From positions 1 to 21,174 of IMG/VR virus record IMGVR_UViG_3300028025_001087: a stretch of DNA of 21,174 bases; one strand, written 5' to 3'. Every line of letters starts with the position of its first letter. Positions within the stretch are counted from its first letter, which is position 1. Below the pieces are notes generated by a model. The model had not been told where the DNA came from, ran no database searches, and saw only the letters and a list, made by a program, of their open reading frames with translations. This document shows positions 16,480 through 21,174 of this stretch, piece by piece. Source of the DNA: a virus. The position numbers and the translations under genes are program-made.

Positions 16480-16639
16480 CAATCCGTTGGTTCTCAAAGC
16501 TGCATAGCGTAGCGTAATACTCAGCGTGGGTCTTGTTTTCAAGATAGCTACGCTTGGCGTTTTCTAGCTCCCTAGTAGCTAATTCTTTTGCTTTTGGTGG
16601 GTGAGTTATGGCTACCCAAATGCGTCTAATAAAGTTCAT
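16430..16639 (-). CDS. Small helical protein, last gene of the leftward operon
   Basis: I place the start at ATG 16639 because a strong GGGAG site (16646-16650) lies 6 nt upstream and the previous gene ends 2 nt before. Longer readings of this frame run through the repeat gene and are not credible. The 69-residue product begins with a basic, proline-containing segment (MNFIRRIWVAITHPPKAKEL) and then forms one charged helix (ELENAKRSYLENKTHAEYYATLCSFENQRIARLEKYLEE). Small phage proteins with this pattern, an (E/A)EYA-like motif and a final RI.RLE, are common and have no known function to me. The 3' end overlaps the endolysin gene tail to tail by 50 nt. Confidence 0.7.
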   Translation of the reverse strand: MNFIRRIWVAITHPPKAKELATRELENAKRSYLENKTHAEYYATLCSFENQRIARLEKYLEEPLPESQS

Positions 16640-16641
16640 GT

Positions 16642-17444: not shown

Positions 17445-17559
17445 TTTGTAACCTTTCTATTTCTTTAATTAAATCCCGAATCATTAACTCGATATTGGTG
17501 CTTGGCGCGTATTCGGCGATGTCGTCAGCCAACTTCTTTGCTTCATCTAATAACTTCAT
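17395..17559 (-). CDS. Small helical protein directly after the helicase (54 aa)
   Basis: The frame runs from ATG 17559 to TGA 17395, and the start overlaps the helicase stop as ATGA. The ribosome site GAGGAG lies inside the end of the helicase gene. The product, MKLLDEAKKLADDIAEYAPS then an IRDLIKEIERLQSEK helix, ends in a Lys/Ala tail (AAKSKAKAKAG). It looks like two helices with an unstructured basic end. It is probably made in step with the helicase and could be a partner, but this is inference. Confidence 0.7.
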   Translation of the reverse strand: MKLLDEAKKLADDIAEYAPSTNIELMIRDLIKEIERLQSEKNNAAKSKAKAKAG

Positions 17560-18890
17560 TTCAACTCCTCTAATGCAATGTCTGAAATAGCCCGTTTATC
17601 CTTCAGGGCGTCCCAAATCCTCAAGTCAATCGTTTTATTGGTTAACAAGAGGTAAACCCATACATCATGCTTCTGACCGCTGCGGTGCAAGCGGCCTACT
17701 GTTTGCTCGTACAACTCAAGGCTCCAAGGCAAGGATACAAAAACCATCTTGCTACCGCCGTGCTGAAGGTTTAACCCATGCCCGGCTGACTTGGGATGGA
17801 TCAACAGCAGTTCAATCTTGCCATCATTCCAACGCTCAATAGCCTTGTCATCGTTGATTGTCTGTGCGTTAGGATACCGACGCTTAAGTTCAGCCAATTC
17901 TTCAATAAAGTTGTAAACAATGATGGTATTGGCGTGTTGGTTTTCCTCAAGCAATTCGTCTAACAGGTCAAACTTGTGGGTGCTAAACCATATGGGCGTC
18001 TTGGTCACGTTCATGCGCCCAGGGCGGTTAGACGCGGTTGTAACCGTTTCGTAGATCCAACCGCCTGCCATCTGTTGTAGCTTGCCTGTAACTACACCTG
18101 CGTTAACTGCGGTGATCTGCACGTCCTTAAACTCAAGAACAAAATCCTTCTTCATTTTCTCGTATGGGGCGCGGTCTGCCAAGTCACACTTCATCTCAAC
18201 GGTATGGCATGGCGGTAGCTTGTCTGCGTATTCGCCAGCCTCTAATACAAATGTTGCAGGTTTGATGCGTTCCATGACTTTTCCTAATGAGCCAACCCTA
18301 GGCTCCCATTCGCCAAAGTCCTTATTGACTAGGACGAAATACTGCTGCATGAACGCGCCTTTGGCACGTCCAAGTAAGTCTTGATTAACAATCTTGCATT
18401 GACCGAATACATCTTCTAAACCATTAGATGTAAACGATCCTGTCAAACCCCAACGAATGTTGATCTTGTCTACGACCTTAGCCAATGCTTTAAAGCGCTT
18501 GCCTGATGGGTTCTTAAGCTTGGTTAGCTCGTCAAACACAATGCCATCAAAATTTAATTCTTGTTCTGACAACCATTGAATGTTGTCGTAATTAGTAACC
18601 ACTACGGGAAAACCCGAATGTAAAGCTTGGGCGCGTTGCACTGGTGTACCAACGGCTACAGCTAACTGCATATCAGTAGCCCACTTCGGTTGCTCTATAG
18701 GCCACACGTCAGTACAGACACGCTTAGGGGCCAGCACAAGCCACCGCTTAACAAAGCCATAGCGCAGCATATCTTGCATGGCTGTTAGCGTTAGCGCCGT
18801 CTTTCCCGCGCCCACAGGGGCAAGGATCATGGCACGATCGTTCTCATACAAGAAATCGGCTGCCTTTTCCTGATAATCACGTAGCTTCAA
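17556..18890 (-). CDS. SNF2-family DNA helicase/translocase
   Basis: I place the start at TTG 18890, giving 444 residues: GGAGG (18898-18902) lies 7 nt before it and the TTG overlaps the previous stop (TTGA). An in-frame TTG five codons earlier would contain the ribosome site. Motifs: Q-type LRDYQEKA at the N-terminus, Walker A PVGAGKT (25-31), LVLAPKRV (Ia), FDELTK for Walker B (~119-124; DELT replaces the usual DEAH), GLTGSFTSNG (III), then in the second RecA-like domain HPKSAGHGLNLQHGG (V) and QTVGRLHRSGQ (VI, ~396-406). This is a compact phage SNF2 protein with no extra domain. It probably moves along duplex DNA in replication or recombination, with the adjacent VRR-NUC and DUF3268-like proteins. 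Confidence 0.9.
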   Translation of the reverse strand: MKLRDYQEKAADFLYENDRAMILAPVGAGKTALTLTAMQDMLRYGFVKRWLVLAPKRVCTDVWPIEQPKWATDMQLAVAVGTPVQRAQALHSGFPVVVTNYDNIQWLSEQELNFDGIVFDELTKLKNPSGKRFKALAKVVDKINIRWGLTGSFTSNGLEDVFGQCKIVNQDLLGRAKGAFMQQYFVLVNKDFGEWEPRVGSLGKVMERIKPATFVLEAGEYADKLPPCHTVEMKCDLADRAPYEKMKKDFVLEFKDVQITAVNAGVVTGKLQQMAGGWIYETVTTASNRPGRMNVTKTPIWFSTHKFDLLDELLEENQHANTIIVYNFIEELAELKRRYPNAQTINDDKAIERWNDGKIELLLIHPKSAGHGLNLQHGGSKMVFVSLPWSLELYEQTVGRLHRSGQKHDVWVYLLLTNKTIDLRIWDALKDKRAISDIALEELK

Positions 18891-19168
18891 AATTGATCCT
18901 CCCAAGCTAAACCATGTGGATTGCCATTTTCATCTTCAGATAGCCAATCAAGTAACGTATGACATTGCGCTTTAGTAAATAAAGCAATATGGGCTTTTTT
19001 AGTAGGTAAACCCATAACTTCAGCTAATAATTGATACGCTTCAGTCCTGGTGTAGCCTTCTTCTTGCCAAAGTTTGTCAAACGCAGTGTGGGTATAGGTA
19101 CGCAAAGACTTTAAATCGTCTTGACGAAACGTACCTTGTAACTGCTTCATTTGTTGTTGTAAGTTCAT
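18887..19168 (-). CDS. DUF3268-like small protein without zinc finger
   Basis: The product has 93 residues, with ATG 19168 overlapping the VRR-NUC stop (ATGA). The core, RTYTHTAFDKLWQEEGYTRT then EAYQLLAEVMGLPTKKAHIA and LFTKAQCHTLLDWL (residues ~23-76), resembles the C-terminal half of DUF3268 (zinc-finger-containing) proteins of phages, where a pattern of R...H..(L/F)D.LW....R.EAY..LA...G.....HI..F....C occurs. The N-terminal CxxC zinc-binding part of that family is absent: the chain starts with a short Gln-rich helix (NLQQQMKQLQGTF). The family sits with SNF2 helicase and VRR-NUC genes in many phages, as here. Function is unknown but probably linked to DNA metabolism. Confidence 0.7.
   Translation of the reverse strand: MNLQQQMKQLQGTFRQDDLKSLRTYTHTAFDKLWQEEGYTRTEAYQLLAEVMGLPTKKAHIALFTKAQCHTLLDWLSEDENGNPHGLAWEDQF
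18898..18902 (-). promoter_or_regulatory. Ribosome site fixing the helicase TTG start
   Basis: GGAGG on the minus strand is spaced 7 nt from TTG 18890-18888. It lies inside the coding end of the DUF3268-like gene. Confidence 0.75.
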
Positions 19169-19461
19169 AAGTCAGCAATCCATTGCATAATTTGTTCTTT
19201 TGTCCACAAGCAAGCATATTTCTGCTTTAGCGACCACATTTCTTCCGCAAATACATCTTGCATAGGCGATAACACGCCTCCTTTAGGACGCTTGATCTCG
19301 ATAAACCACGTATCGCCATTAGGCAAACAAGCAATTCGATCAGCAACGCCGCGCTGGCTGATAGACTTGAATTTATAAGTCTTGCCGCCAATTGAGGCAA
19401 CCGCCCAAACAAAGTATTTTTCAATCTCTGCTTCTCTTTCAGGTTTATTTTGTGTTTTCAT
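19165..19461 (-). CDS. VRR-NUC domain nuclease
   Basis: I place the start at ATG 19461 (98 residues, MKTQNKPEREAEIEKYFVWA). The open frame continues upstream to 19560, but that part reads through the divergent gene and its ribosome site. The protein has the compact VRR-NUC (PD-(D/E)XK) pattern: helix with E10/E12, KFKSISQRGVADRI with Asp41, the strand FIEIKRP with Glu55 and Lys57, then LSPMQ with Gln68. These fit the metal-binding and catalytic places of stand-alone phage VRR-NUC proteins, which cut branched DNA. It is the first gene of the leftward operon. No ribosome site precedes the ATG, and a possible -10 ends 7 nt before it, so the mRNA may be leaderless. Confidence 0.85.
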   Translation of the reverse strand: MKTQNKPEREAEIEKYFVWAVASIGGKTYKFKSISQRGVADRIACLPNGDTWFIEIKRPKGGVLSPMQDVFAEEMWSLKQKYACLWTKEQIMQWIADL

Positions 19462-19468
19462 GTTAAAA

Positions 19469-19498
19469 AGTTTAGCACAAATAAAAAAGCTGTGGTAA
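19469..19498 (-). promoter_or_regulatory. Possible leftward promoter (VRR-NUC operon)
   Basis: On the minus strand, TTACCA (19498-19493, 4 of 6) lies 18 nt before TAAACT (19474-19469, 4 of 6) with an extended TGC. The expected transcript start falls at about 19462-19461, the A of the VRR-NUC ATG. It mirrors the rightward promoter and overlaps it completely. Confidence 0.35.
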
Positions 19499-19501
19499 AG
19501 T
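19472..19501 (+). promoter_or_regulatory. Possible rightward promoter (HNH operon)
   Basis: TTAGCA (19472-19477, 4 of 6) lies 18 nt before TAAAGT (19496-19501, 4 of 6), which carries an extended -10 TGG directly upstream. Expected start near 19508 would give a leader of about 23 nt ending in the strong AGGAGAG site of the HNH gene. Confidence 0.35.
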
Positions 19502-19517
19502 TTAATCTCAGTCAGGT

Positions 19518-19527
19518 AAAGGAGAGT
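19518..19527 (+). promoter_or_regulatory. Ribosome site fixing the HNH TTG start
   Basis: AAAGGAGAGT includes GGAG (19521-19524), 6 nt before TTG 19531. No comparable site precedes any upstream start in the frame. Confidence 0.75.
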
Positions 19528-19530
19528 AAA

Positions 19531-20121
19531 TTGAAAACTTGTAGTAGATGCAAAATTCAAAAATCAACACAGTTGTTTTATAGCAACAGCAAAAGCAAAG
19601 ATGGCTACGCAACTCAATGTAAAGATTGCCACCGCGTAGTAGCTAAGCAATCTATAGCTGCTAAAAGACTTAAGCTAGGGGCTAACTTTTTTAGTAAAGA
19701 AAACCGTAAAGCCCATTCTCAAATGGTTGCTAAAAATATTATTGCAAAACGTAACAACGATCCGTTATTTAAATTAGCTGATAACACTCGAAAACTTATC
19801 TATGTTTGCTTGAGGTCTAAAAACATTACTAAAACAAGTAAAACAACACAAATACTTGGGTGTGACTTTGAGTTTTTACAACTTTATTTAGAAATGCAAT
19901 TTGCGCCTGATATGTCTTGGGATAATTTTGGTGAATGGCATTTAGACCATAAAACGCCTATCAGCACCGCAAAAACTGTACAAGAAGTGTATGAGCTAAA
20001 TCATTACACCAATCTTCAACCTTTATGGGGTGGCTACAATATCTTGAAAAAGGATATGATGCCAAACCAATGGGCGCAGTACATTAAATTAAACAACATT
20101 AACCTAGGAATAAGACCATGA
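19531..20121 (+). CDS. HNH endonuclease with N-terminal zinc ribbon
   Basis: The product has 196 residues from TTG 19531. The open frame extends left to 19450, but that would cross the promoter region. The N-terminus is a zinc ribbon with Cys4, Cys7, Cys30 and Cys33 (KTCSRCK ... CKDCHR), common at the start of phage HNH proteins. The nuclease domain has WHLDHKTPIS (Asp139, His140), then NHYTNLQPLWGGYN (Asn161, Asn170) and KKD, the HNH metal-finger signature. It is probably a free-standing homing-type endonuclease, but a role in packaging or host DNA cleavage is not excluded. It is the first gene of the rightward operon and overlaps the Cas4-like gene by ATGA. Codon use is more A-rich than in the Cas4-like gene, which fits an invader. 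Confidence 0.85.
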   Translation: MKTCSRCKIQKSTQLFYSNSKSKDGYATQCKDCHRVVAKQSIAAKRLKLGANFFSKENRKAHSQMVAKNIIAKRNNDPLFKLADNTRKLIYVCLRSKNITKTSKTTQILGCDFEFLQLYLEMQFAPDMSWDNFGEWHLDHKTPISTAKTVQEVYELNHYTNLQPLWGGYNILKKDMMPNQWAQYIKLNNINLGIRP

Positions 20122-21174
20122 GCGAATTAACTAAACACTCCAACGTAGTGGGCGGTTCTACTGCCAAACGTGTTATTGGTTGCCCTGGCTCTGTAGCCTT
20201 GTGCGCCAAGATGCCACCTAAGCCATCTAGCAAATACGCTGACGAAGGCACCCTTCTTCATAACGTCATGGATCTTATCCTGACCACCAACCAAACCCCT
20301 GAGTCATTTGCGGGTATGGAATACGAAGGTATTAAGTTAACCCAAGAGCTAATAGACGAGAAGGTTTACCCTGCGCTTAGAGCTTTGGATGACATTGACC
20401 CTAACAAGGAAATGGAATATGCAACAGAAACTAGAGTTGGGTTTGGCGATTTTCTCCCTGGCGTGTTTGGTTCTACTGATCTTCTTGGTCGGATTGGTAA
20501 ACGTGCTTTCATTCTTGATTGGAAGTTTGGTTCAGGTGTCCCAGTTCCTGCTGACGATAATCCTCAACTGATGTTCTACGCGGCTGCGGCCATGCGTACC
20601 CCTGAAGTCCAATGGGTATTCGATGAGTGCGATGAGATCGAGTGCATCATCGTGCAACCCCCATCTGTAAAGCGTTGGGTTACAACAACCAAGCGTATTA
20701 AAGCCTTTGAGCAAGAACTAGCGATGGCGGTCAAGATCAGTCAAATGCCTGACGCGCCATTAAACGCAGGCGATCATTGCCGTTGGTGTGCCGCCAAGCC
20801 TACTTGCCCTAAGATGACAGGTCTTGCTGACCGCGCCCTGCACGCGCAGTTAGATACATTAGATGTAGCGCAGATTGCTGAATACCTTAAAAAAGCCGAT
20901 ATGCTTGAGCAATGGATTACCGACGTACGTGGGTTAGCGCACCAAGTGTTAGATGCGGGTAAACCCGTGCCAGGCTTTAAGTTGGTTGCCAAACGCGCTA
21001 TTCGCCAATGGGTTGATGAAAAAGAAGCTACTCATTGGCTTGATGGCAAAGGTCTTGAACCAAATCAGATATATGAAAGAAAAATAATTTCACCCGCAGT
21101 TGCAGAAAAGTTATTGAAAAAGAATAAGATATCTCTTTCACAAGACTTAGTAGTAGCAGTAAGCAGTGGTAGTA
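20118..21174 (+). CDS. Cas4-like PD-(D/E)XK nuclease, DUF2800-type, cut by window end
   Basis: The frame runs from ATG 20118 (ATGA overlap with the HNH gene) to the right edge without a stop; 352 residues are visible. The N-terminus, TAKRVIGCPGSVALC then SSKYADEGTLLHNVMD, is the opening motif of DUF2800-type phage nucleases (R...CPGS; AxEGT..H). The middle has TDLLGRIGKRAFILDWKFGSG, with Asp134 and Lys136 of the PD-(D/E)XK core, and PQLMFYAAA as motif IV. Cys221, Cys224 and Cys230 (CRWCAAKPTC), with Cys22, can hold a 4Fe-4S cluster as in Cas4/AddB-like nucleases. It probably acts as an exonuclease in phage recombination or replication. In related phages a single-strand-binding protein and a DNA polymerase usually follow, presumably beyond the edge here. 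Confidence 0.87.
   Translation, partial: MSELTKHSNVVGGSTAKRVIGCPGSVALCAKMPPKPSSKYADEGTLLHNVMDLILTTNQTPESFAGMEYEGIKLTQELIDEKVYPALRALDDIDPNKEMEYATETRVGFGDFLPGVFGSTDLLGRIGKRAFILDWKFGSGVPVPADDNPQLMFYAAAAMRTPEVQWVFDECDEIECIIVQPPSVKRWVTTTKRIKAFEQELAMAVKISQMPDAPLNAGDHCRWCAAKPTCPKMTGLADRALHAQLDTLDVAQIAEYLKKADMLEQWITDVRGLAHQVLDAGKPVPGFKLVAKRAIRQWVDEKEATHWLDGKGLEPNQIYERKIISPAVAEKLLKKNKISLSQDLVVAVSSGS

Follow-up and report, generated by a model that had tools for sequence, protein, structure and literature searches.

How are two divergent operons of a virus started from a gap of only 69 nt? In the window, by which we mean the whole 21,174-nt stretch of viral DNA analysed here (IMG/VR record IMGVR_UViG_3300028025_001087), the gap at 19462-19530 is the sole place where a leftward and a rightward operon diverge; the other change of strand, at about 16480-16641, is convergent. 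The original prediction for this gap described an inverted repeat whose arms were read as overlapping divergent promoters, and proposed either a switch between the two operons or a dimeric regulator bound to both arms. Here, we have compared the gap with those of related phages. We propose that two overlapping divergent sigma70-type extended -10 promoters are laid out on the same 33 bp, of which the leftward one would give a leaderless mRNA and the rightward one a leadered mRNA; judged by sequence comparison, we give this reading a probability of about 0.75. The probable leaderless start of the leftward operon is a point that the original prediction missed.

MATERIALS AND METHODS

Loci were collected by scanning viral contigs with proteins five times and genome bins once; with the window and the record MW202483 added, the matches listed gave at least 414. 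Eighteen loci were dropped (VRR-NUC was absent from 5, no start was found in 4, and 9 lay too close to an end), as was the duplicate L163. The 395 loci that were kept gave 223 unique upstream sequences, and 12 of these were removed as DUF2800 was not divergent at 30-1000 nt, which left 211 unique loci. The window itself belongs to this set, in which every locus has DUF2800 on the other strand at a distance of 30-1000 nt. Since the loci are related, counts over the 211 are not independent. Promoter thresholds and weights were set by us. The name VRR-NUC was taken from the annotations of the matches of that gene, and the genes of G001, a relative of the window, were found by a simple gene call (about 39 genes).

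RESULTS

The genes on either side of the gap and the elements within it are given in Table 1. Small ORFs follow the SNF2 helicase in the leftward operon. Neither the VRR-NUC-like gene nor the HNH/endonuclease VII-like gene has a Pfam match at 0.01. The VRR-NUC relatives are 80-95% identical (L009 excepted) and use the same ATG. The distance from VRR-NUC to SNF2 differs among relatives, and in G001 a C5 cytosine methylase (PF00145; L416 7270-8406) lies between the two. On the rightward side, the HNH stop overlaps the DUF2800 ATG (20118), and in G001 a nucleotidyltransferase-like gene, DNA polymerase A and primase are found further on. Among the 414 loci in the matches listed, the HNH gene of the window is matched at E 1e-5 or better by its own locus only. 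As DUF2800 begins within 110 nt in 131 of the 211 unique loci, the HNH gene appears to be an addition in the window. The distance from VRR-NUC to DUF2800 is 110-1000 nt in 80 of the 223 unique loci, the window included, suggesting that the rightward operon may have an insertion hot spot at its first position.

Table 1. Genes and predicted promoter elements around the divergent gap (positions in the window)
Feature	Position	Strand	Remarks
SNF2-type helicase gene	17556..18905	-	leftward operon; PF00176 E 3.9e-13 and PF00271
DUF3268 zinc-finger gene	18887..19168	-	leftward operon; PF11672 E 3.4e-17
VRR-NUC-like endonuclease gene	19165..19461	-	first leftward gene, 98 aa; PHROG 93 endonuclease E 1.3e-21; without Shine-Dalgarno
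Predicted leftward transcription start	19461..19462	-	at, or 1 nt before, A of ATG
Leftward extended -10, left arm TGTGCTAAACT	19469..19479	-	hexamer TAAACT 19474-19469; read directly
Rightward -35 place TTAGCA	19472..19477	+	4/6 consensus; 18-nt spacer; overlaps leftward -10
Spacer between arms	19480-19490		11 nt
Rightward extended -10, right arm TGTGGTAAAGT	19491..19501	+	hexamer TAAAGT 19496-19501; read directly
Leftward -35 place TTACCA	19493..19498 (read 19498-19493)	-	4/6 consensus; 18-nt spacer; overlaps rightward -10
Predicted rightward transcription start zone	19506..19511	+	about 7-9 nt past rightward -10
Shine-Dalgarno AAGGAG of rightward leader	19519..19524	+	6 nt before TTG start at 19531
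HNH/endonuclease VII-like gene	19531..20121	+	first rightward gene; PHROG 1035 E 4.2e-24; TTG start
DUF2800 gene (Cas4-like PD-(D/E)XK exonuclease)	20118..21174	+	PF10926 E 1.9e-60 and PF12705; runs past window end

The gap agrees in coordinates and sequence with the original prediction, and the inverted repeat was recovered as described, with 11-nt arms identical at 9 of 11 positions. Each arm, read outward on its own strand, is an extended -10 form, as had been proposed, and matches TRTGnTAnnnT; the arms behave in the same way in the relatives. The left arm ends 7 nt upstream of the VRR-NUC ATG, and with the usual spacing between a -10 box and the first transcribed base, the predicted leftward start falls on the start codon or next to it. 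This start codon is an ATG that has no Shine-Dalgarno sequence in the window. That each arm also supplies the -35 of the opposite promoter stood up in part. The position holds, with 3 bp of each -10 in the window shared with the -35 place of the opposite promoter, but a conserved -35 function does not, as sequence and spacing vary in the relatives: the leftward -35 reads TTACCA, GTACCA, ATAGCA or others, and the rightward -35 is TTGACA, TTTGCA or TGCACA in many relatives of the other layout. As judged from these sequences, an arm has its -35 role by virtue of where it lies and not through a conserved sequence. By our own count, both sites score 8/12 against the consensus over the two hexamers, and a generic consensus scan (at least 9/12 over both hexamers) picks up neither arm.

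The inverted repeat alone is a modest signal. At least one inverted repeat of 11 nt with 9 or more matches arises in 4.8% of 2000 dinucleotide shuffles of the gap, and three such placements, as found in the gap, are reached by 0.65% of the shuffles. The outward-facing pair of TRTGnTAnnnT is a strong signal, being found in 0 of 5000 shuffles. This pattern occurs exactly twice in the whole window, both times at the arms, compared with 8.24 expected; with four genomes pooled, its depletion ranks 3rd of 210 permuted patterns, and its rarity is partly common to look-alikes. The conservation of the arms in related phages, on which the original prediction hung, was borne out: the outward pair is found once in each of 7 of the 10 relatives' contigs (36-43 kb) and is absent from 3, and 89 of the 211 unique loci, the window among them, have the left element, a TRTGnTAnnnT lying exactly 7 nt upstream of the VRR-NUC ATG. 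Further copies of TRTGnTAnnnT, the looser pattern, number 1 in G001 and 4 in G006. A motif repeated across the phage genome was considered and rejected, as TGTGNTANANTTT is found only at the promoter locus, twice in 7 of the 10 contigs and 0 times in the other 3.

A close -10 box is the common arrangement at the VRR-NUC start. The best -10 within 0-40 nt of this start lies at 5-8 nt in 177 of the 211 unique loci (104 at 7 nt, 59 at 6 nt, 13 at 5 nt and 1 at 8 nt, so that 163 of 211 are at 6 or 7 nt), compared with 13.3% expected from mononucleotide shuffles. Counting any passing -10 at 5-8 nt also gives 177/211, versus 12.7% in dinucleotide shuffles; at the DUF2800 start the figure is 2/124. 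By clusters (<70% upstream identity), the near -10 is found at VRR-NUC in 36 of 57. A Shine-Dalgarno 4-mer is present at the VRR-NUC start in 12 of the 211 loci and in 9 of the 57 clusters, and its distribution is uneven: 1/177 with the near -10 versus 11/34 without it (Fisher 4e-9), leaving 23 of the 34 with neither. Several of these 34 exceptions have TATATT about 4 nt before the ATG, which is a poorer fit to a leaderless start. VRR-NUC starts with ATG in 129/131, a count inflated by a start rule that favours ATG over GTG; the two GTG starts (L143 and L413) both have a Shine-Dalgarno sequence. The -10 box 7 nt before the ATG, together with the lack of a ribosome-binding site, suggests that the leftward mRNA is probably leaderless.

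The rightward start is of the other kind. At the extrapolated DUF2800 start, a Shine-Dalgarno 4-mer is found in 92/124. A looser rule, which accepts any nearby in-frame start and is thus less strict than the VRR-NUC count, gives 128/131, the DUF2800 starts with a Shine-Dalgarno sequence being ATG in 91 and GTG in 37.

Comparison of the relatives revealed two layouts. In 76 of the 211 loci, the leftward -10 lies on the rightward -35 place, as in the window, and the predicted starts are mostly 46 bp apart; the size of this class is 76, 77 or 83 by slightly different rules. In another 76 loci the -35 regions overlap, often as TTGACA/TTGTCA, and the predicted starts are mostly 63-65 bp apart. The remaining loci comprise 29 with other layouts and 30 without a leftward call. 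All these counts follow our own scoring, which sought a leftward -10 at 5-8 nt only. In the overlapping -35 layout a further -10, often TATATT, lies between the shared -35 and the ATG, and the window type is about 17 nt shorter there (close pairs, L010 and L102 for example, have gaps of 73 vs 90 nt). What follows TTGTGC is TAAACT in the window type, and AAAACT (11), AAAAGT (11) or AAATCT (2) in the second layout. None of the 24 cases in which TTGTGC stands farther from the ATG (20-60 nt upstream) has TAAACT directly after it, suggesting that the window-type -10 arises when there is no downstream -10; TAAACT looks like what would be expected of a -10 that has taken its place while keeping its distance from the ATG. 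When the two classes of layout (A and B, assigned by a related rule) are placed on FastTree trees and support values are ignored, the class changes at least 9 times for DUF2800 and 12 times for VRR-NUC. Such repeated changes would fit an exchange of the gap or repeated conversion.

The two arms do not change together. The 77 window-type loci hold 24 distinct combinations of arms and spacing, where TG and TA.ACT on the left and A7 and T11 on the right are fixed by selection. For a looser test we took the 89 loci that have the left element at 7 nt from the ATG, and made no base of the right arm compulsory; in 72 of the 89, a full TRTGnTAnnnT faces the other way within 16 nt. The commonest left arm (69 loci), which is that of the window, pairs with 13 different right arms. 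The differences among right arms lie mainly in the second base (G/A), in n and within the -10; where TGTG has become TATG, or TAAAGT has become TACAGT or TATAGT, the -10 is retained and the left arm shows no matching change. Identity within pairs is not above re-pairing (p 0.20 for the 24 distinct pairs, p 0.19 for 31 in the looser test), so that no covariation of the arms beyond re-pairing was found in the relatives, although the test is of low power, the left arm having been chosen by pattern and being variable at few positions. The arm spacer is 11 nt in most loci, 6 nt in 8 and 1 nt in L313, both extended -10s being retained, and spacers of 12, 10 and 9 nt are also found. L371 (1380-1530) and L313 are natural variants with the arms 5 or 10 nt closer, and would serve as test cases for the overlap of promoters. 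One left arm with many right arms, and a variable spacing, argue that the arms are not read as a unit.

Two structural explanations were considered. An RNA hairpin or other structured RNA was rejected, as the predicted start of each transcript lies outside the arms and Rfam gave 0 matches in 19300-19700. N4-type promoters are hairpins of single-stranded DNA. The gap does fold as DNA (z -4.3), but the loop is 11 nt and the pairing of the arms is not kept.

We also observed that the strong -10 core TAnAAT is rare in coding sequence when compared with synonymous-codon shuffles. It occurs 29 times in the window vs 55.4 expected, and in the relatives the observed and expected counts are 19/51.0 (G001), 27/70.2 (G006) and 64/108.1 (G008); the distant MW202483 is without this depletion (70/68.7). 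Control hexamers of the same composition are mostly not depleted. Against dinucleotide as well as synonymous-codon shuffles, both TAnAAT and TATAAT are strongly depleted in the window and in L415-L420, which are G001, G006 and G008, but not in MW202483. The phage group thus seems to avoid stray host promoters, a theme on which we found nothing on point in the open-licence literature. With the window, G001, G006 and G008 pooled, the palindromic 6-mers TGCGCA, TCATGA, CCATGG, CTGCAG and TGATCA are among the most depleted hexamers, and the non-palindromic GAAGAC/GTCTTC was seen 0 times vs 39.7 expected. It is as if restriction sites were avoided.

As to the relatives themselves, freshwater phages share the promoter layout of the window or, as far as their sequences tell, a close variant of it. 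The nearest named record among the matches listed is MW202483, a podovirus record from Manatee Spring with 53% VRR-NUC identity, whose gap is 63 nt and has no clear leftward -10. Bacterial genome bins gave 15 matches, of which 8 (in 7 different bins) have betaproteobacterial names; the 7 others include Armatimonadetes, Mucilaginibacter and Verrucomicrobia. The 8 of 15 suggest that the host is probably betaproteobacterial, with the usual doubt over viral contigs in bins.

DISCUSSION

The arrangement that we propose would work as follows. The right arm would start the transcript of the rightward HNH/DUF2800 (replication) operon, whose leader would carry the Shine-Dalgarno sequence. The left arm would start the VRR-NUC/zinc finger/SNF2 transcript at, or about 1 nt from, the VRR-NUC ATG, so that this mRNA would be leaderless. 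As each promoter occupies the core of the other, the sigma70-type polymerase presumed to read them could use one direction at a time, as the original prediction supposed. The cores overlap in the window and in the relatives, simultaneous binding of polymerase is implausible, and both layouts would lead to one polymerase at a time. With such exclusive use, the two operons, both of which are needed, would be expressed in a set ratio; a regulated switch is not implied.

Could the sequence have another meaning? That a chance inverted repeat in an A/T-rich gap was mistaken for a pair of promoters is very improbable: shuffling does produce repeats of similar quality, but never the outward pair of extended -10 forms, and conservation in the relatives refutes this explanation. 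An operator, on which a dimeric regulator represses or activates both operons, is better matched to the symmetric arms, whose centres, in the common form, lie 22 bp apart. The gap as a single DNA strand folds better than 200 shuffles, and the distant MW202483 has a gene annotated as helix-turn-helix. However, the right arm changes while the left stays, the spacing is not fixed, and no helix-turn-helix family was found in 14 distinct G001 proteins (10 scanned against Pfam, 10 against PHROGs), several of which had no match or matched families of unknown function. We therefore consider a dimeric operator unlikely, and this part of the original prediction was not upheld. The likeness of the arms would come from their both being extended -10 boxes and not from recognition by a dimeric protein.

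It is also conceivable that only the rightward promoter is real, VRR-NUC being read from elsewhere and the left arm being kept as a conserved -35 region. In the other layout the same place is indeed a shared -35 region (TTGTGC/TTGTCA), so that the conservation of the left arm has a second reason. Nevertheless, we find this improbable, as it leaves unexplained why a -10 stands 6-7 nt before the ATG in two sequence settings and why the Shine-Dalgarno sequence is missing at VRR-NUC, and a further leftward promoter, with a leader, would hardly fit into the gap. Also improbable is a true switch, in which firing one way shuts off the other direction at a chosen time of infection. The overlapping cores would allow it, and in pLS20 overlapping divergent promoters of unequal strength form part of a switch (PMC4207663). 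Yet that report ties the switching to different activities plus a regulator, whereas the two sites of the window are equal against the consensus, and no regulator was seen among the 14 G001 proteins scanned, of about 39 genes. Moreover, five tested bidirectional promoters of E. coli were without competition at basal activity, although they can compete once one side is strengthened or activated (PMC12825309). Overlap alone is insufficient, and the switch between the operons is unsupported; mutual exclusion of polymerase by the overlap of two promoters is likely.

The lambda PRM and PR promoters are divergent, separate and furnished with repressor operators. Like them, the promoters of the window are divergent phage promoters with one leaderless mRNA and one leadered, here predicted; unlike them, the cores overlap, and the genes are those of a nuclease and a replication operon. 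The leaderless mRNA of lambda is that of cI (PMC9031893). Closer in geometry are the bidirectional promoters described by Warman, Grainger and colleagues (PMC10268837 and PMC12825309), which have starts 7-25 bp apart and a reciprocal overlap of -10 and start. The likeness lies in a pseudo-symmetric, overlapping core that polymerase would read either way but never both. The predicted starts in the window are about 46 bp apart, unlike the 7-25 bp of those promoters, and the -10 overlaps the opposite -35 place. As in pLS20 Pc/Pr, divergent core promoters coincide between two transcription units, but the unequal strengths, the regulator Rco and the DNA looping given for pLS20 (PMC4207663) were not seen here. 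For the leaderless start, a TANNNT box adjoining the ORF is established leaderless-gene logic in Deinococcus-Thermus (PMC12340547). The VRR-NUC start resembles it in having a -10 a few bases before the start codon and no ribosome-binding site; it differs in that one phage gene is concerned, whose promoter shares its DNA with a divergent one, and in that the hosts are presumed to be betaproteobacterial. In the open-licence literature we found no paper on this promoter region, nor on the theme of leaderless and divergent extended -10 promoters. The kinds of component are known separately, and it is their combination, together with two layouts in one phage family, that is new.

The locus provides a natural series for how two promoters share bases, with 152 unique variants by our scoring, two layouts and small apparent steps between them, and also for the question of what could bind a promoter to a start codon. 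If the mRNA that heads a phage operon is leaderless and conserved, it would help to test in which circumstances leaderless translation is of advantage during infection. More tentatively, it is possible that this widespread freshwater podovirus-like family reads its replication and nuclease/helicase operons from a two-faced promoter in which the leaderless start has been kept while the layout flipped repeatedly between a shared -35 and a -10 that doubles as the opposite -35, and in which competition for polymerase and leaderless translation would together fix the ratio and timing of the two operons.
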